Positions 23,851 to 31,597 of a stretch of 64,000 bases of DNA are shown here, piece by piece. The position numbers were made by a program, and so were the translations under genes. Below the pieces are notes generated by a model. That model was not told where the DNA came from. It made no database searches and worked only from the letters and a program-made list of their open reading frames with translations. Source of the DNA: an uncultured Flavobacteriaceae bacterium (lineage in GTDB: Bacteria > Bacteroidota > Bacteroidia > Flavobacteriales > Flavobacteriaceae); assembly GCA_947486785.1 (NCBI GenBank), contig CANKUU010000015.1:1-64000 (forward strand), given 5' to 3'. Positions within the stretch are counted from its first letter, which is position 1; every line of letters begins with the position of its first letter.

Positions 23851-25299
23851 ATGGCTTCTGTTTTAAAAAGAGATACAGCATTTGAAAACATTCCTTCAAT
23901 AAAAGCGAAAACACTTAGAATAAATTTAAATCCAGATATTTATGGCACTTTTGCCGAAATTGGCGCTGGGCAAGAAACCGCACGTCATTTTTTTAGATCT
24001 GGAGGAGCTTCTGGTACAATTGCAAAAGCGATGAGCGCTTATGACAAGCAATTTAGTGATGCTATTTATGGTGTTGAAAAAGATGGCAGATATGTGACCC
24101 AACCGCGTTTAAAAACGATGTTGAATCATGAAATGCGTTTGATGGAAGAACGTATAAGCAGAGAAAGTCATCCTGATCGCTTATTTTTCTCTTACGCAAA
24201 CACAGTTGCCACCATCGATTTTTCAAAACGGTATAAAGGCCACGGTTGGATTGGTATTCGCTATCAATTAGACCCTACGCAGAAAGAGCTAGATGAAATT
24301 ATTTTACACGTACGCTTTAAACAAAATGAAGCACGACTACAGCAAGAAACTTTAGGTATTTTGGGGGTTAACCTAATTTATGGTGCTTTTTACAAGTATC
24401 ATAAACCTAAAAAAATGTTGAAATATTTATATGATCATATTGATAAAGACACTATTGAAATTGATATGATTAATTTTAATGGTCCTAATTTTAAAGATGT
24501 TGATAATAGATTAATGAGTCTTCAGCTTATCAAAAATGATATGACTGATGCTGTTATGTTTGGCCCTGATGGTAATAATCTTTTGCCCGCAGCAGTACTC
24601 TACAAAAAAAATATATTAGCCCTTCGCGGTAGCTTTCGACCGGTAACGAAAGTAAATCTTGACATGTATAAAAAATCTTATGATATATTTATACGAGACG
24701 CTGCCGTAGATGAAGAAAAAACGATTGTTATTTTTGAAATAACCTTATCAAACTTAAAAGCATCTGGTGAAATTGATGAACAAGATTTTATGGATAGAGC
24801 AGAGTTATTGTGCTCTATGGGACAGCATGTAATGATCTCAAAATTTCAAGAATATTATAAACTTGTAGAATATTTTAATAATTATACAAAACAACGAATT
24901 GGGCTTACCATGGGTGTAAACAATTTGATTGATGTTTTTGATGAAAAATATTATCGACATTTAAGTGGCGGAATACTAGAAGCTTTTGGTAAATTATTCT
25001 TCAAAGATTTACAGGTCTACTTGTACCCCATGAAAAACGCTGAAACTGGCCAGATTATGACAAGTAACAACGTTAAAGTACACCCAAGAATGAAAGAATT
25101 ATATAAATTCTTTAAGTACAATGGTAAGGTGATGGACATTATTGATTATGACCCTGAAATTATGGATATTTTCTCAAGAAATGTGCTCAAAAAAATTATG
25201 AGTGGTGAAGCAGGTTGGGAAGAGCAACTACCCGAGGGTATTGCTGAAATAATTAAAAGCAAAAAATTGTTTACTAAAAAAATGACTGAAACGAAGTAA
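23851..25299 (+). CDS. Conserved protein of unknown function (about 480 aa)
   Basis: A 482-aa soluble protein with no signal peptide or membrane segment. Recognisable conserved stretches are RDTAFENIPSIKAKTLRINL at the N-terminus, GTFAEIGAGQETARHFFR (about 33-50) and SGGASGTIAKAMSAYDK. A Rossmann-like region is possible around IGAGQE. I recall very similar full-length proteins in Bacteroidetes and some Proteobacteria under inconsistent names (for example nicotinate-nucleotide adenylyltransferase or TonB receptor), none of which fits: there is no HxGH nucleotidyltransferase motif, plug or barrel. It is a monocistronic gene with its own promoter box and a shared terminator downstream. Strong conservation suggests a housekeeping task, not identified. 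Confidence 0.85.
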   Translation: MASVLKRDTAFENIPSIKAKTLRINLNPDIYGTFAEIGAGQETARHFFRSGGASGTIAKAMSAYDKQFSDAIYGVEKDGRYVTQPRLKTMLNHEMRLMEERISRESHPDRLFFSYANTVATIDFSKRYKGHGWIGIRYQLDPTQKELDEIILHVRFKQNEARLQQETLGILGVNLIYGAFYKYHKPKKMLKYLYDHIDKDTIEIDMINFNGPNFKDVDNRLMSLQLIKNDMTDAVMFGPDGNNLLPAAVLYKKNILALRGSFRPVTKVNLDMYKKSYDIFIRDAAVDEEKTIVIFEITLSNLKASGEIDEQDFMDRAELLCSMGQHVMISKFQEYYKLVEYFNNYTKQRIGLTMGVNNLIDVFDEKYYRHLSGGILEAFGKLFFKDLQVYLYPMKNAETGQIMTSNNVKVHPRMKELYKFFKYNGKVMDIIDYDPEIMDIFSRNVLKKIMSGEAGWEEQLPEGIAEIIKSKKLFTKKMTETK

Positions 25300-25371: not shown

Positions 25372-25827
25372 TTAATTTTCAAGTATTTGATTAGCATGAT
25401 CCTTTGTTTTAACTTTTTCAATAACTTTTGAAATAATTCCATTTTCATCAATAACAAAAGTCATTCTATGAATACCGTCATAAACTTTTCCCATAAATTT
25501 CTTGGTTCCCCAAACACCAAAAGTATTAATAACCGTATGATCTTCGTCTGCCAATAGAGGAAAAGGAAATTTGTACTTATTTCTAAAATTTGATTGTCTT
25601 TTTTCTGAATCTGCACTTACACCAAGTAGCTCATACCCCTGTAATTGTAATTCAGCATAATTATCTCTTAAATTACAAGCCTCCACAGTACAACCTGGTG
25701 TACTTGCCTTAGGATAGAAAAAAACAATTAATTTTTTTCCTTTGTAATCAGATAAATGTATAGTATTGCCATCTTGGTCTTTGGCTGAAAATTCAGGCAC
25801 AGCATCTCCTATTTTTAAAGTATTCAT
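25372..25827 (-). CDS. bcp: Thioredoxin-dependent peroxiredoxin (BCP/PrxQ)
   Basis: A 151-aa peroxiredoxin of the BCP/PrxQ class. The peroxidatic Cys46 is in STPGCTVEAC, with the resolving Cys51 five residues later, the hallmark of this subgroup. Conserved FYPKASTPG and the active-site Arg of the C-terminal half (HRMTFVID) are present. It is cytosolic and reduces H2O2 and organic hydroperoxides with electrons from thioredoxin. It is divergent from the endonuclease III gene, with 55 bp between starts. Confidence 0.95.
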   Translation of the reverse strand: MNTLKIGDAVPEFSAKDQDGNTIHLSDYKGKKLIVFFYPKASTPGCTVEACNLRDNYAELQLQGYELLGVSADSEKRQSNFRNKYKFPFPLLADEDHTVINTFGVWGTKKFMGKVYDGIHRMTFVIDENGIISKVIEKVKTKDHANQILEN

Positions 25828-25882: not shown

Positions 25883-26545
25883 ATGACAAAAAGCGAAAAA
25901 ATAAATTTTACGATTAATACACTTCAAAAGTTATACCCTACAATCCCTGTTCCATTAGATCATAAAGACCCATATACTTTATTAATAGCCGTTTTAATGT
26001 CTGCACAAAGTACTGACGTTCGTGTAAATAAAATTACACCTTTGTTGTTTGCAAAAGCCGACAACCCGTACGATATGATAAAGTTATCTGTTGAAGAAAT
26101 TAGAGAGATTATAAAACCGGTAGGGCTATCACCCATGAAAGCTAAAGGTATTTATGGCTTATCTAAGGCTATAGTTGAGAAATATGACGGTAAAGTACCT
26201 CAAAAATTGGAACAGTTAGAGGAATTTCCTGCAGTAGGCCATAAAACAGCAAGTGTTGTAGTGTCTCAAGCTTTTGGCATACCTGCTTTTCCTGTAGATA
26301 CCCATATACATCGATTGATGTATCGATGGGGATTTTCAAACGGCAAAAACGTAAATCAAACTGAAAAAGATGCTAAAAGACTGTTTCCTAAAGAATTATG
26401 GAACGATCTTCACCTACAAATTATATGGTATGGTCGTGAATATTCTCCAGCCAGAGGATGGAATTTGGATAAAGATGTTATTACCAAAACCATTGGAAGA
26501 AAAAAAGTTATTCACGACTATTATCGAACTAAAAATACCCGCTAA
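25883..26545 (+). CDS. nth: Endonuclease III homologue without the Fe-S cluster cysteines
   Basis: A 220-aa HhH-GPD DNA glycosylase/AP lyase for oxidised pyrimidines. The helix-hairpin-helix is EEFPAVGHKTASVV with catalytic Lys121, and the catalytic Asp139 is in PVDTHIHR. I start it at ATG 25883, where family homology begins; the longer open frame runs into the divergent bcp gene. The C-terminal region that normally holds Cys-x6-Cys-x2-Cys-x5-Cys reads GREYSPARGWNLDKD, and the whole protein contains no cysteine, so no [4Fe-4S] cluster can form. Catalytic residues are intact, so activity is likely. The stop codon lies within a small terminator hairpin. Confidence 0.9.
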   Translation: MTKSEKINFTINTLQKLYPTIPVPLDHKDPYTLLIAVLMSAQSTDVRVNKITPLLFAKADNPYDMIKLSVEEIREIIKPVGLSPMKAKGIYGLSKAIVEKYDGKVPQKLEQLEEFPAVGHKTASVVVSQAFGIPAFPVDTHIHRLMYRWGFSNGKNVNQTEKDAKRLFPKELWNDLHLQIIWYGREYSPARGWNLDKDVITKTIGRKKVIHDYYRTKNTR

Positions 26546-26553: not shown

Positions 26554-26558
26554 ACATT

Positions 26559-26702
26559 TTAGTTTAAAATACTTTCAAATTTTAAATCTTGGTATTCTAC
26601 CACTCGTAATGACTTTGAAAAAGATAACAAAAAACGAACTGTATCTTTGCTTGATTTTATAAGTTTTGTTTCTTTTTGGTGTTCTGTGTAAATTCTATCC
26701 AT
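26559..26702 (-). CDS. 47-aa conserved microprotein linked to ECF sigma factor (copy 1)
   Basis: Found by hand translation: 47 aa starting MDRIYTEHQ, with a central helix VRFLLSFSKSLRV and ending FESILN. It is the same length as the product of 27770-27913 and aligns with it without gaps at 17 of 47 positions (MxxIYT, TxxFLLxxSKSLxV, ESxxN). Each of the two genes lies 73-74 nt downstream of one of two paralogous sigma-factor genes, which makes both highly credible. There is no signal or membrane segment. A role as a sigma-associated regulator is inferred only from position. Confidence 0.8.
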   Translation of the reverse strand: MDRIYTEHQKETKLIKSSKDTVRFLLSFSKSLRVVEYQDLKFESILN

Positions 26703-26775
26703 GTCAATAAGGCTTGTTATGCTAGAATAACGCAGCAAATATGGATATATTGTTTACACCTTAAGAAACGAAATA

Positions 26776-27417
26776 TTAATTTGTCAAAACTATGTTGTTT
26801 TTTTCAATAATCTTTCTAAGGTTAATTAAGGCATATCGCATTCTACCTAAAGCAGTATTTATGCTTACCCCAGTATTTTCGGAAATTTCTTTAAAGCTCA
26901 TATCCTTATAAATACGCATTAAAAGTACTTCTCGTTGATCATCTGGAAGCTCTTCAATTAAATCTCTTAAATCAGAATCAATTTGATCTTTTATAATTTG
27001 TTTCTCTGCATTTAACTTATCATCACCAATAACTGAGAATATATTGAAGTCATCGCTACCTTCAAACTTCGGCATTCTCTTATTTTTTCTAAAATGGTCA
27101 ATAATCAAATTGTGAGCAATTCTCATTACCCATGGTAAAAATTTACCTTCTTCGCTATAAGAACCTTTCTTAAGAGTCTTAATTACTTTAATGAAGGTAT
27201 CTTGAAAAATATCTTCAGTAATATCTCTGTCTAATACTTTTGAATAAATAAAACTAGTTACACGTTGATTATGACGGTTAATTAAAATTTCTAGAGATTT
27301 TTCATCACCACTTATATAATCTCTTACTAGTATTGAGTCTTCTATTTGATATTCCATGCGAGTAGGTCTTTTGTTTATTGTTTGGGCGTTTGTTTTAATT
27401 GTTTTTTGGTTAGCCAT
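26776..27417 (-). CDS. ECF-type RNA polymerase sigma factor (copy 1)
   Basis: A 213-aa sigma-70 family factor of group 4. Region 2 is NRHNQRVTSFIYSKV..ITEDIFQDTFIKVIKTL with the PWVMRIAHNLIIDHFRK core-binding part; region 4 is LPDDQREVLLMRIYKDMSFKEISENTGVSINTALGRMRYA-type helix-turn-helix. From Met21 it is 77% identical (149 of 193 by hand) to the product of 27988-28569. The first 20 residues (MANQKTIKT...) are an extension absent from the paralogue; a start at 27357 (MEYQIEDS) is a real alternative. No anti-sigma gene is adjacent, only the 47-aa gene downstream. Confidence 0.93.
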   Translation of the reverse strand: MANQKTIKTNAQTINKRPTRMEYQIEDSILVRDYISGDEKSLEILINRHNQRVTSFIYSKVLDRDITEDIFQDTFIKVIKTLKKGSYSEEGKFLPWVMRIAHNLIIDHFRKNKRMPKFEGSDDFNIFSVIGDDKLNAEKQIIKDQIDSDLRDLIEELPDDQREVLLMRIYKDMSFKEISENTGVSINTALGRMRYALINLRKIIEKNNIVLTN

Positions 27418-27481
27418 GGTAGATTTTTTTTTGAGTTTGGTTATTATCGCTGCAATTGAGCTTTGATGTTTAACTATGACC

Positions 27482-27489
27482 CAAAACTA
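27482..27489 (-). promoter_or_regulatory. Candidate -7 promoter element (TAGTTTTG)
   Basis: Exact TAnnTTTG match on the minus strand, 64 nt before the sigma-factor start at 27417. No well-spaced TTG was found. Confidence 0.35.
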
Positions 27490-27706
27490 TGTATTAAGGG
27501 GCTAGAGAAAAAAAACTTGTTGTCAAACCCCTAGTTTTTGATGTGAAAACGCACTTTTCTATTCTTCTGTAAAATAAAGTACTCTTAGGTGCGTTACTTC
27601 AACAACTCTTGATAAAGCACTTTCATCGTATTTTCTGAACTTTTATATCTTATGTATATAGGTGAGTACTATATAGGAATGAATTATATACTGATATTCT
27701 TAAACT

Positions 27707-27760
27707 CTAAAGCAAAAAAAAGCCCCAACATTATAATGTTGGGGCTTTTTTTTGCTTTAG
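27707..27760. terminator. Perfect 54-nt palindrome, bidirectional terminator
   Basis: CTAAAGCAAAAAAAAGCCCC on the left is mirrored exactly by GGGGCTTTTTTTTGCTTTAG on the right, meeting at ACATTA/TAATGT: 27 nt each side with no mismatch. The GC-rich core flanked by A8/T8 fits intrinsic termination on both strands. It lies 9 nt after the stop of the 47-aa gene at 27770-27913 and isolates it from the downstream sigma gene. Confidence 0.9.
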
Positions 27761-27769
27761 AATAAAATA

Positions 27770-27913
27770 CTAATTCATATTCGATTCATATTGTACACCT
27801 TTAATGGTAGCTACATTTAAAGATTTTGAATAGTTCAATAAAAATTCAATGGTTTCAGGTTTTGCTTGAACTAGATTGACTTTGTTGTTGTTTTTTGTAT
27901 AAATTTTTCCCAT
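27770..27913 (-). CDS. 47-aa conserved microprotein linked to ECF sigma factor (copy 2)
   Basis: Found by hand translation: 47 aa starting MGKIYTKNNN, with a central helix IEFLLNYSKSLNV and ending YESNMN. It is an ungapped homologue of the 26559-26702 product and, like it, follows its sigma-factor gene (74-nt gap). A strong terminator lies immediately downstream, so sigma factor and microprotein probably form a two-gene transcript. It is basic at the N-terminus, with an amphipathic helix in the middle. The function is unknown: it could modulate the sigma factor, but direct evidence is absent. Confidence 0.82.
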   Translation of the reverse strand: MGKIYTKNNNKVNLVQAKPETIEFLLNYSKSLNVATIKGVQYESNMN

Positions 27914-27987
27914 ATCTAGTTTTCAATTGTTTGATATTTAAACGAAAACAAAACTAAATATAGTAAAATCGAACGACAAATACCGTA

Positions 27988-28569
27988 TTAATTCGTTAAA
28001 GCAATATTATTTTCACTAACGATCTTTCTAAGGTTAATTAACGCATAACGCATTCTGCCTAAGGCTGTATTTATACTAACACCTGTATTTTCCGAAATTT
28101 CTTTAAAGCTCATATCCTTATAAATACGCATTATCAAAACTTCTCGCTGGTCTTCTGGCAATTCTTCAACCAAAAGTCTAAGATCACTATCTATTTGATC
28201 TTTTATAATTTGACTTTCTATATCTAATTTATCGTCGCCCATAAGAGAAAGCATATTATAGGCATCGCCACCTTGATACATAGGCATTCTATTATTCTTT
28301 CTAAAATGATCTATAATAAGGTTATGAGCTATTCGCATGATCCAAGGTAAAAATTTACCTTCTTCATTATATGTTCCTCTTTTTAAGGTTCGAATTACCT
28401 TTATAAAAGCTTCTTGAAAAATATCTTCAGTAATTCCCCTATCATTTACTTTAGAGTAAATAAAACTACTTATTCGCCTATTGTGCCGCTCAATAAGCGT
28501 CTCTAAGGCTCTTTCATCTCCAGAAATATATTTTTGAATTAAAATGGAATCGTCAATTTGCACTTTCAT
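27988..28569 (-). CDS. ECF-type RNA polymerase sigma factor (copy 2)
   Basis: A 193-aa group 4 sigma factor, paralogue of the 26776-27417 product. Region 2 (ERHNRRISSFIYSKV..ITEDIFQEAFIKVI; PWIMRIAHNLIIDHFRK) and region 4 (LPEDQREVLIMRIYKDMSF.., SINTALGRMRYA) are complete. I start it at ATG 28569 (MKVQIDDS), because eleven extra upstream codons have no counterpart in the paralogue. The two proteins differ mostly in the segment between regions 2 and 4, while region 4 is nearly identical, so they probably recognise very similar -35 elements. It is divergent from uvrA. Confidence 0.93.
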   Translation of the reverse strand: MKVQIDDSILIQKYISGDERALETLIERHNRRISSFIYSKVNDRGITEDIFQEAFIKVIRTLKRGTYNEEGKFLPWIMRIAHNLIIDHFRKNNRMPMYQGGDAYNMLSLMGDDKLDIESQIIKDQIDSDLRLLVEELPEDQREVLIMRIYKDMSFKEISENTGVSINTALGRMRYALINLRKIVSENNIALTN

Positions 28570-28804: not shown

Positions 28805-31597
28805 ATGACAAAGATGCCTAATTTACTTGACGTTAACCCAAAAGACAATATCATTATAAAAGGTGCACGACTGCACAACTTAAAAAATATTGATGTTGTA
28901 ATACCTAGAAACAAATTTGTAGTAATAACCGGTTTATCTGGCTCTGGAAAATCTAGCTTGGCATTTGACACACTTTATGCTGAAGGGCAAAGACGTTATG
29001 TTGAAAGTCTCTCTTCATATGCACGGCAATTTTTAGGTAAATTAGACAAACCAAAAGTTGATTATATAAAAGGTATAGCGCCTGCAATTGCAATAGAACA
29101 AAAGGTAAACTCAACAAATCCGAGATCTACAGTTGGAACAACTACGGAAATTTATGACTACTTAAAATTACTTTTCGCAAGAATTGGAAAAACAATTTCA
29201 CCAATTTCTGGTGAAGAGGTTAAAAAGAATACGGTAACCGACGTTGTTTCGCATATTAAAAAATACGACTTAGGCACAAAACTACTTTTATTAGCACCCA
29301 TAACTATACCTAAAAATAGAGACTCTTTAAAATCGCTTGAGCTATTTTCAAAACAAGGCTATGCAAGAATACAATATAAGGGAGAAGTATTGCGAATTGA
29401 TGATGCACCTAAAAATATTGGCAAAAAATTCTACTTAGTTGTTGATAGAATTATCACCAAAGATGATGAAGACTTTTATAATCGTTTAGCCAATGCTATT
29501 GACACTGCCTATTTTGAAGGAAAAGGAGAGTGCATCATTGAAGAGTTAACAAATAAAAAACAAGTGCATTTTAGTAATAAATTTGATTTAGATGGTATGT
29601 CTTTCTTAGAGCCTAATGTGCACTTATTTAGTTTTAATAATCCGTATGGGGCTTGTCCTGAGTGTGAAGGTTATGGTGATGTTATTGGCATTGACGAAGA
29701 TCTTGTTATACCCAATACCTCATTATCAGTCTATGAGAATGCTATTTTTGCTTGGCGTGGAGAAAGCATGAGTTGGTACCGAGATCAATTGGTGAATGCA
29801 GCTTATAAATTTGACTTTCCTATTCACAAACCTTGGTTTCAATTAACAGAAGCACAAAAGAAACTTGTTTGGGATGGTAATGATTTCTTTATCGGTCTTC
29901 ATAAATTTTTTAAACAACTCGAAGAAAAAAGTTATAAAATTCAAAATCGAGTAATGCTATCTAGATATCGCGGAAAAACTACTTGTAAAGTATGCAATGG
30001 AAGACGCCTACGCTTAGAAACAGATTATGTAAAGATTGCAGATAAATCTATCTCTGATTTAGTAGATCTACCGATAGAAAAATTAATAGATTTTTTTAAA
30101 ACTATACCACTAAATGCTCATGATACTCAAATTGCAAATAGACTACTCAAAGAAATAAATGCACGACTAGGTTTTCTATTTAAAGTTGGGTTAGGATATT
30201 TAACCTTAAATCGAAAATCTAATAGCCTATCTGGTGGAGAAAGTCAGCGTATTAATTTAGCAACCTCTTTGGGTAGTAGTTTAGTAGGTTCTATGTATAT
30301 TTTAGATGAACCTAGCATAGGATTACATCCAAAAGATACCGAAAATTTAATTGATGTTTTAAAATCTTTACGCGATTTAGGTAATACGGTTATTGTAGTA
30401 GAGCACGATGAAGATATAATGAAAGCCGCCGATCAAGTTATAGATATTGGTCCGCTAGCAGGCACTCAAGGAGGAGAAGTTGTTGCTAACGGTACTTTAA
30501 AAGATATTTTAAAATCCACGTCGCTTACGGCAAGCTATTTAAATGGTAAAGAAGAAATCAAAATTCCTAATAAAAGAAGAACTTCAAAGAGTTTTATTAA
30601 AATCACTGGGGCTAGAGCAAATAATTTAAAAAATATTGATGTCACTTTTCCCCTAAATATGTTAACCGTTGTGACTGGTGTTTCTGGCAGCGGTAAAAGC
30701 ACCTTAGTGAAGAATATTTTATATCCAATTATTTTAAAAGAAGTTGGTGGTTTCGGACAAAAAGCAGGTCAGTACACATCTTTTGAAGGTGAATTTAAAG
30801 CTATTAAACATGTCGAATTTGTAGATCAGAACCCTATTGGTAGGTCATCAAGGTCTAACCCAGTAACCTATATAAAGGCCTACGATGATATTCGTAATTT
30901 ATTCGCTTCTCAAAAGTTAAGCAAAATTAGAGCCTACCAAGCAAAGCACTTTTCCTTTAATGTCGACGGAGGTCGTTGTGAAAAATGTAAAGGAGAAGGT
31001 GAAATTACAGTAGAAATGCAGTTTATGGCAGATGTGCACCTAACATGTGATGTTTGTGACGGAAAGCGTTTTAAGAAAGAAGTACTTGAAGTTAAATTTG
31101 AGAACCTTAGCATTGACGACATTTTAAATATGACCATTGATAATGCTTTAGATTTTTTTGAAAAGCATCAACAAACTAAACTCTTTAGTAAATTAAAACC
31201 TTTACATGATGTAGGTTTAGGGTATGTAAAATTAGGCCAATCCTCATCTACCCTATCAGGTGGCGAAGCACAACGAATTAAGCTCGCTTCTTTTTTAGTG
31301 AAAGGAAGGTCTAAAGAGAAAGCACTTTTTATTTTTGATGAACCAACAACTGGGCTTCATTTTCACGACATTAAAAAATTACTAAAATCATTCACTGCCC
31401 TCATTGATAAAGGTCATTCTATTGTTGTTATTGAGCATAATATTGAGCTAATAAAATCTGCTGATTACATTATAGATTTGGGACCTGAAGGGGGAGTAAA
31501 CGGTGGTCAGTTATTAGCGACGGGGACCCCCGAAGAACTAGTAAAAAGCAAAAATTCTCATACCGCGAAATATCTTAAAGAGAAGTTACTACCATAA
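28805..31597 (+). CDS. uvrA: Excinuclease ABC subunit A
   Basis: A 930-aa UvrA, the damage-recognition ATPase of nucleotide excision repair. It has two ABC modules: Walker A GLSGSGKSSL (43-52) and GVSGSGKSTL; signature motifs SGGESQRI and SGGEAQRI; Walker B YILDEPSIGLH and FIFDEPTTGLH. Zinc modules are CPECEGYG..CKVCNGRR and CEKCKGEG..CDVCDGKR. I chose ATG 28805; a TTG at 28781 would be upstream of the -7 box. MTKMPNLL also offers an ATG three codons later. It is monocistronic, and its length is normal for the family. Confidence 0.97.
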   Translation: MTKMPNLLDVNPKDNIIIKGARLHNLKNIDVVIPRNKFVVITGLSGSGKSSLAFDTLYAEGQRRYVESLSSYARQFLGKLDKPKVDYIKGIAPAIAIEQKVNSTNPRSTVGTTTEIYDYLKLLFARIGKTISPISGEEVKKNTVTDVVSHIKKYDLGTKLLLLAPITIPKNRDSLKSLELFSKQGYARIQYKGEVLRIDDAPKNIGKKFYLVVDRIITKDDEDFYNRLANAIDTAYFEGKGECIIEELTNKKQVHFSNKFDLDGMSFLEPNVHLFSFNNPYGACPECEGYGDVIGIDEDLVIPNTSLSVYENAIFAWRGESMSWYRDQLVNAAYKFDFPIHKPWFQLTEAQKKLVWDGNDFFIGLHKFFKQLEEKSYKIQNRVMLSRYRGKTTCKVCNGRRLRLETDYVKIADKSISDLVDLPIEKLIDFFKTIPLNAHDTQIANRLLKEINARLGFLFKVGLGYLTLNRKSNSLSGGESQRINLATSLGSSLVGSMYILDEPSIGLHPKDTENLIDVLKSLRDLGNTVIVVEHDEDIMKAADQVIDIGPLAGTQGGEVVANGTLKDILKSTSLTASYLNGKEEIKIPNKRRTSKSFIKITGARANNLKNIDVTFPLNMLTVVTGVSGSGKSTLVKNILYPIILKEVGGFGQKAGQYTSFEGEFKAIKHVEFVDQNPIGRSSRSNPVTYIKAYDDIRNLFASQKLSKIRAYQAKHFSFNVDGGRCEKCKGEGEITVEMQFMADVHLTCDVCDGKRFKKEVLEVKFENLSIDDILNMTIDNALDFFEKHQQTKLFSKLKPLHDVGLGYVKLGQSSSTLSGGEAQRIKLASFLVKGRSKEKALFIFDEPTTGLHFHDIKKLLKSFTALIDKGHSIVVIEHNIELIKSADYIIDLGPEGGVNGGQLLATGTPEELVKSKNSHTAKYLKEKLLP

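Follow-up and report, generated by a model that had tools for sequence, protein, structure and literature searches.

A 47-residue protein encoded behind an ECF sigma factor gene is a candidate minimal, self-regulated anti-sigma factor of Bacteroidia

We analysed a stretch of 64,000 nucleotides (nt) from an uncultured Flavobacteriaceae bacterium (contig CANKUU010000015.1 of assembly GCA_947486785.1; hereafter the window), in which two genes for extracytoplasmic function (ECF) sigma factors are each followed by a gene of 47 codons, here called a microgene. We concluded that the microgene is real and conserved and that it most likely encodes a minimal, self-regulated anti-sigma factor. A previous reading of the window's letters (the sequence-only reading) had recognised the genes and their pairing, which held up, and had guessed at an anti-sigma role, which is the best reading; it had missed a conserved element that precedes the microgene, as well as the microgenes that have no sigma neighbour. 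The two units are laid out as follows:

26559..26702, minus strand: microgene 1 (P0001), 47 amino acids (aa), ATG start; its partner is the conserved sigma copy
26727..26752, minus strand: promoter-like element CAATA-N15-CGTT(AT), exact form, ~25 nt ahead of the ATG of microgene 1
26776..27417, minus strand: ECF sigma factor, conserved copy (P0003)
27770..27913, minus strand: microgene 2 (P0002), 47 aa, ATG start; its partner is the faster-evolving sigma copy
27939..27965, minus strand: element before microgene 2, degenerate, with CGTT retained and the first half diverged; matches the consensus of 54 copy-1 gaps
27988..28569, minus strand: ECF sigma factor, second copy (P0004), 193 aa

The coordinates confirmed the arrangement described in the sequence-only reading, with stop-to-ATG gaps of 73 and 74 nt between sigma gene and microgene. 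The two sigma proteins are 77% identical, and a recomputed alignment of P0001 and P0002 again gave 17 of 47 identical residues (36%; E 3.1e-6 in a search of the window's own genome). Both sigma proteins matched PF04542 and PF08281/PF04545 and no region-3 family was among their matches, which classes them as ECF sigma factors. P0003 resembles P0004 only from the Met at codon 21 (27357) onward, and this Met may be its true start.

Relatives' contigs were fetched with the sigma protein alone; among at least 594 pattern matches, 523 encoded a relative, of which the best 80 were retained, and 78 contigs, all from close relatives, were used. Results showed that every sigma open reading frame (ORF) in these contigs had one micro ORF behind it (132/132). 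The unit was double in 54 contigs and single in 24, in support of the sequence-only reading. Within the genus, both microgenes were present in 13 of 14 genomes, the exception being a genome that is 57% complete. Together with the window's two, this gave 134 pairs. The micro start was sought as a Met 43–51 codons ahead of the stop, so that all 134 begin with ATG by construction. Exactly 47 aa were encoded by 123 of the 134, the C-terminus was Leu-Asn in 124, and the gap behind the sigma gene measured 66 to 76 nt in 121 pairs (full range 62 to 122). The pooled ratio of nonsynonymous to synonymous substitution rates (dN/dS) came to 0.10 in the microgene, against 0.023 in the sigma gene, over 48 close, non-independent comparisons. 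A chance ORF was ruled out by the genus-wide retention of the pair, the unbroken pairing with sigma ORFs and the dN/dS value, and we concluded that the microgenes are real, conserved genes, as their class-wide homologues also indicate. The sequence-only reading had named a lack of homologues at the same position and a dN/dS near 1 as findings that would speak against it; the pairing and the measured ratio exclude both.

At E 0.001, a profile of the 47-aa form had matches in 17 of 148 phylum genomes, all of them in the same order. A wider profile, at E 0.01, had matches in 206 of 296 order genomes and in 77 of 197 class genomes, and a third matched 53 of 296 phylum genomes at E 0.001, only two of which fell outside the class; these two (G892 and G968) were taken as chance, since the matches lie inside ORFs of 714 and 676 aa. 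Sixty-nine class matches lie outside the window's family and the other matched family of its order, the two best-covered families. A micro ORF is held by 68 of them, as L276 (genome G455) yielded none and L190 was counted although chance-like. In 45 of the 68 a sigma gene lies directly upstream (within 900 nt), 24 are within 1.5 kb of nth, and 13 have both neighbours. Among 15 microgenes without a sigma neighbour, 8 adjoin nth, and in five of these loci the order is nth, a Bcp-type peroxiredoxin gene and a gene that we take, from its sequence, to be recA. The microgene, like an anti-sigma gene, thus adjoins an ECF sigma gene in all 132 near cases and in those 45 of 68 farther ones, and we concluded that the sigma-micro pairing is common to relatives across the class Bacteroidia.

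Longer proteins occupy the same place in other families. Behind the same sigma gene we found proteins of 77 aa (L221, L236) and of ~155–180 aa (L213, L226, L227), the latter with a membrane stretch seen by eye. Ten of 13 genomes of the G439 family matched the membrane form, in all 10 places immediately downstream of the sigma gene; the ORF at L249 is shorter. Family f48 has forms of 85–90 aa at the nth locus (L167, L177, L250–L252), in which a longer N-terminal part is joined to the micro C-terminus. Of three membrane forms, two matched the NCBIfam model NF052375, 'anti-sigma factor' (E 5.4e-8 and 0.0029), and one had no NCBIfam match; the model also matched the 89-aa soluble form of L167 (E 4.7e-4), and the 77-aa form weakly matched another NCBIfam anti-sigma model (E 0.022). 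All of these matches fall under the curated cut-offs, and a Pfam search of the longer homologues gave nothing sensible.

Profile comparison with hhalign linked the forms in a chain. The 47-aa profile aligned to the 50–70-aa forms at 98.2% (E 6e-14) and to the 75–90-aa forms at 97.0% (E 1e-10), the 50–70-aa forms aligned to the 75–90-aa forms at 98.8%, and the latter to the membrane forms at 99.0% (E 3e-18). Thirty column shuffles per target scored at most 14.0, against real scores of 61.2 and 50.8. In the alignments, the 47-aa form begins like the longer ones (MxKxYS, beside MxKTFT) and shares their last helix, PxxTIxFLLNYSKSL, but is without the middle. Searched by themselves, the 47-aa forms matched no Pfam, NCBIfam or PDB sequence family beyond chance (PDB at E 10); PHROGs gave one match of unknown function (E 0.056), and three Pfam families at E 0.024–0.12, each for one of 33 members, were dismissed as chance. 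The 47-aa form is best read as a shrunken descendant of an anti-sigma domain, with the start and the fourth helix kept and the three-helix bundle lost. This turns the earlier guess into the best reading, and it recasts the accompanying statement that no classical anti-sigma gene is present: the microprotein would itself be the remnant of one.

A structure model of P0002, built with 51 sequences, has a helix at residues 19–30 and strands at 32–37 and 40–45. The four-helix ASDI fold was not found in the 47-aa form, which has one predicted helix and a hairpin, with the rest present in the longer homologues by alignment; on this model the form is classed as a truncated descendant and not as an ASDI member. 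In class I domains the three-helix bundle binds sigma 4, whereas helix 4 binds sigma 2 at the docking site of core RNA polymerase; of the 14 strongest couplings, 12 join helix 4 to sigma 2 (PMC7406223). A peptide reduced to helix 4 would be a sensible, if extreme, inhibitor, because helix 4 binds sigma 2 with most of the strong couplings.

The gap between sigma gene and microgene contains a conserved element. Copy-2 and single-unit gaps align on CAATATTTC...GCGTTAT. Pairs of CAATA and CGTT were counted in unique gaps for all spacer lengths between 8 and 24. Only spacer 15 was used in the near set, in 74 of 129 unique gaps (shuffle mean 0.07). It occurred in 20 of 44 gaps of the order sample, with one case at 21 (shuffle mean 0.01), and in 30 of the remaining 55, with 10 at spacer 16 and one at 21 (shuffle mean 0.04); these 55 include up to three loci of a Riemerella-like genus. 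The element lies 24–29 nt ahead of the ATG in all 74 near cases. It is also present at 17 of 23 orphan microgenes, which have no adjacent sigma gene (11 of the 17 at 17–28 nt), and ahead of sigma genes in 20 of 146 upstream regions (shuffle mean 0.37), four of these 20 being artefacts of cut loci and one lying far upstream. By sequence it has the look of an ECF-type promoter, with two boxes, fixed spacing, a CGT in the -10 box and a constant distance to the gene. One study takes a CGT box at -10 as indicative of ECF promoters and describes such a motif in F. psychrophilum (PMC9723704). The housekeeping promoter TAnnTTTG was not enriched in the gap (6/134 versus 6.9 shuffled). The occurrence of one element ahead of the partner, of orphan partners and of some sigma genes is the pattern expected of a promoter through which this sigma factor regulates itself.

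Further sequences touch on this element. The copy-1 gap consensus (L033–L110) has an additional conserved AGGTCGA upstream, of which the single-unit consensus keeps TCGA and copy 2 has none; copies 1 and 2 may have different promoters. A stricter pattern with one mismatch gave an excess in the genus (129 versus 65). Twelve of the 129 matches are the microgene itself, 21 come from two matches that recur, in 13 and 8 genomes, within long ORFs (as checked at L301 and L311), and 5 of 10 inspected sites lie within ORFs of 200 aa or more. In eight genus genomes a CGTTATCGATAA stretch (L285, L287, L298, L353–L359) follows the stop codon of a pgk-like gene with CAATA in the last codons, where it is coding, ~100 nt ahead of a lytic-transglycosylase-like gene; pgk and lytic transglycosylase are names that we presume for these genes. 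CAATA-N15-CGTTA precedes an orthologous-looking membrane protein of ~225–238 aa in four genus genomes, including the window's own (L348, L349, L350, L352), with CAATA inside a terminator-like hairpin. CACTAT-N13-GCGTTAT recurs in five genus genomes, and in the locus checked (L304) it lies ~144 nt before a gene for a TPR-like protein.

We propose that the product of each microgene is probably a minimal anti-sigma factor, which would close a negative-feedback loop with its sigma factor. The ancestor would have been a class I-like anti-sigma domain, a three-helix bundle plus helix 4, from which the peptide would retain the first residues, helix 4 and a hairpin-like C-terminal tail ending in Leu-Asn. 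The most likely target of the peptide is sigma 2 of its partner sigma factor, which it would mask. Transcription of the peptide's gene would be driven by the ECF-type element, which this sigma factor most likely recognises; an active sigma factor would in this way produce its own brake. We infer that the peptide is translated, that it binds and inhibits the sigma factor, and that the sigma factor reads the element. The broader account, to which we give about an even chance, is that an ancient, class-wide ECF sigma factor is governed by an anti-sigma protein that has shrunk in stages which can still be seen, from a membrane form of ~170 aa through a soluble form of 75–90 aa and one of 50–70 aa to one of 44–50 aa. 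What is left would be one helix that binds sigma 2, followed by a fixed C-terminal tail, and a sigma-dependent promoter of its own would drive its expression.

Several observations weigh against this account. A direct hhalign comparison of the 47-aa and membrane forms was not significant (1.8%), which leaves the homology dependent on the chain. The 47-aa form is without the bundle that binds sigma 4, and a single helix may not inhibit; the P0002 model is also only moderately sure (predicted local distance difference test, pLDDT, 71; predicted template modelling score, pTM, 0.37). The sigma factor was present in 171 of 197 class genomes at E 1e-40 (a single copy per genome among the matches listed, except in the window's own), whereas the microgene was found in only 77. 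Forty sigma loci were examined closely, picked for the absence of an adjacent micro match; 11 of them gave a micro match at E 0.5 (one ~2.7 kb off), three had the membrane form, and several were without any small gene. Twelve of the 68 farther microgenes have neither sigma nor nth adjacent, at least L190 among them being chance-like. In copy-1 gaps it is mainly the CGTT half of the element that is conserved, and the consensus of the 54 gaps is without the first half. The element was found in none of the 134 sigma upstream regions of the near set. Its exact form was not enriched across genus genomes (152 versus 171 in the reversed control), nor in the window's own genome (5 versus 14), and a genome-wide regulon drawn from it was rejected for want of any excess; because the element is infrequent elsewhere in the genus, it may be nearly private to the sigma-micro module. 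Lastly, the sequence-only reading took the faster divergence of the microproteins as what would be expected of a specific partner. This divergence goes with purifying selection that is clear, though weaker than that on the sigma gene, and a partner-swap test gave a weak result for co-divergence: r was 0.16, against a mean of 0.09 and a maximum of 0.17 over 500 swaps.

We weighed four other explanations. The peptide could aid its sigma factor as a chaperone, stabiliser or holoenzyme factor, its role having changed after the bundle was lost. Such a positive partner would suit the retention of only helix 4 and tail, as the loss of three helices would weaken inhibition, and would suit the C-terminal Leu-Asn, which a bare helix 4 leaves unexplained. 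However, the longer homologues found in this position match an anti-sigma model and the sigma-type element directly ahead fits feedback inhibition better, and we consider this role unlikely. The conserved C-terminus might instead belong to an adaptor that binds the sigma factor and delivers it to a protease; in Flavobacteriaceae and in other families of the class the protein commonly ends in Asn, mostly as Leu-Asn. The searches gave no match to an adaptor or degron family, and the idea is argued from parallels; we give it only a small chance.

We judged it slightly less probable again that the peptide regulates another process, such as base-excision repair or peroxide defence, and is merely transcribed with or by the sigma factor. 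The microgenes beside nth (24/68, and 8 of 15 lacking a sigma neighbour) are what this explanation would account for, yet orphan microgenes retain the same element (17/23) and some of the longer homologues match the anti-sigma model. The last alternative, that the ORF is untranslated and its conservation stems from an RNA or DNA element, has in its favour the strongly conserved non-coding element that precedes the microgene. Selection at the codon level (dN/dS 0.10), the fixed length (47 aa in 123/134) and a window without any Rfam match make it very improbable. An anti-sigma role remains the reading that we prefer.

The two sigma copies have evolved differently. P0003, which adjoins nth, is the conserved one, with up to 97% identity to relatives, and P0004 reaches 85%. 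A tree of 55 of the 134 sigma proteins with 8 outgroup rows did not resolve the duplication history: 28 of its 58 inner branches stay open, and the two copies would require 5 and 8 label changes.

Other features of the window bear on the setting of the units:

25372..25827, minus strand: Bcp/AhpC-type peroxiredoxin, conserved neighbour
25883..26545, plus strand: nth-type gene (HhH-GPD base-excision repair protein), conserved neighbour, convergent here
27706..27761, strand not given: palindromic hairpin 3' of microgene 2, with A/U runs in the outer stem, a likely transcription terminator by folding
28811..31597, plus strand: uvrA, neighbour on the side opposite nth and the peroxiredoxin

An oxidative-damage response is the likely setting of the sigma-micro module, because its neighbours are nth, peroxiredoxin, recA or uvrA. 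The hairpin at 27706–27761 is a near-perfect palindrome with A/T runs (-40.4 kcal/mol, z -10.4) and was absent from the site list of a simple terminator scan. A terminator-like site directly 3' of microgene 1, at 26555–26535, is weak evidence, with one site versus 1.0 in shuffles. A 482-aa ORF at 23851–25299 had no Pfam match at 0.001.

The sigma factor has an orthologue in RA0C_1534 of Riemerella anatipestifer, published as a factor of oxidative stress (PMC6557517); both of its published quantitative reverse-transcription (qRT) primers lie inside the sigma ORF of L238 and L239. The first primer was found in 3 of 320 genomes of that family, and both primers lay inside the ORF at two of the three loci. 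The sigma protein at these loci matched P0004 at E 3e-52 and is followed by a 44-aa microgene. The RA0C_1534 mutant is sensitive to peroxide, and the gene is induced by peroxide, iron limitation and loss of Fur; mention of a microgene was not found in the available part of the paper (PMC6557517). The downstream deletion primer of that study (PMC6557517) starts in the sigma-micro gap, as judged from L239; by its primers the deletion stopped there, ahead of the microgene, which was presumably left in place.

The microgenes share with the genes of class I anti-sigma proteins (RseA, RsiW, ChrR, RskA) a place directly behind an ECF sigma gene, and the longer homologues keep the helical N-terminal stretch, the Pro and the last helix and connect by the chain to the NCBIfam model. 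Unlike these proteins, the 47-aa form is without the three-helix bundle and without a membrane or sensor part, and it has a conserved tail after helix 4. CnrY, a class II anti-sigma factor compared here by description and not by sequence, likewise has a very small sigma-binding part with its last helix on sigma 2, but it uses two helices (PMC7406223). EcfO-Reo of Bacteroidales also consists of an ECF sigma factor with a downstream regulator, in the same phylum and in a stress setting (PMC13114119). It was ruled out as the same system, since Reo is a multi-compartment protein that spans all five compartments (PMC13114119), whereas the microproteins are small peptides. SigP (PGN_0274) of Porphyromonas gingivalis, likened to the window's sigma factor by description only, is an ECF sigma factor of 193 aa, as is P0004, and has one F. 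johnsoniae homologue; it differs in working with PorX (PMC4800418, PMC10951265). A peptide of the present kind was not found among the titles and abstract openings listed in the literature searches, most subscription journals being outside their scope.

How the many ECF sigma factors of Bacteroidota are controlled is an open question, and the present account offers a concrete answer for one of them, a sigma factor found in most genomes of the class. In a survey, a class I anti-sigma gene lay beside only 6% of Bacteroidetes ECF factors (PMC7406223); if our account is true, hidden peptides would help explain this rarity. The regulator would then be present, at least in some of the class, but too small to recognise. 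The gains would be a smallest-case anti-sigma peptide, a candidate promoter of fixed spacing, and an orthologue with a published phenotype, sensitivity to peroxide.

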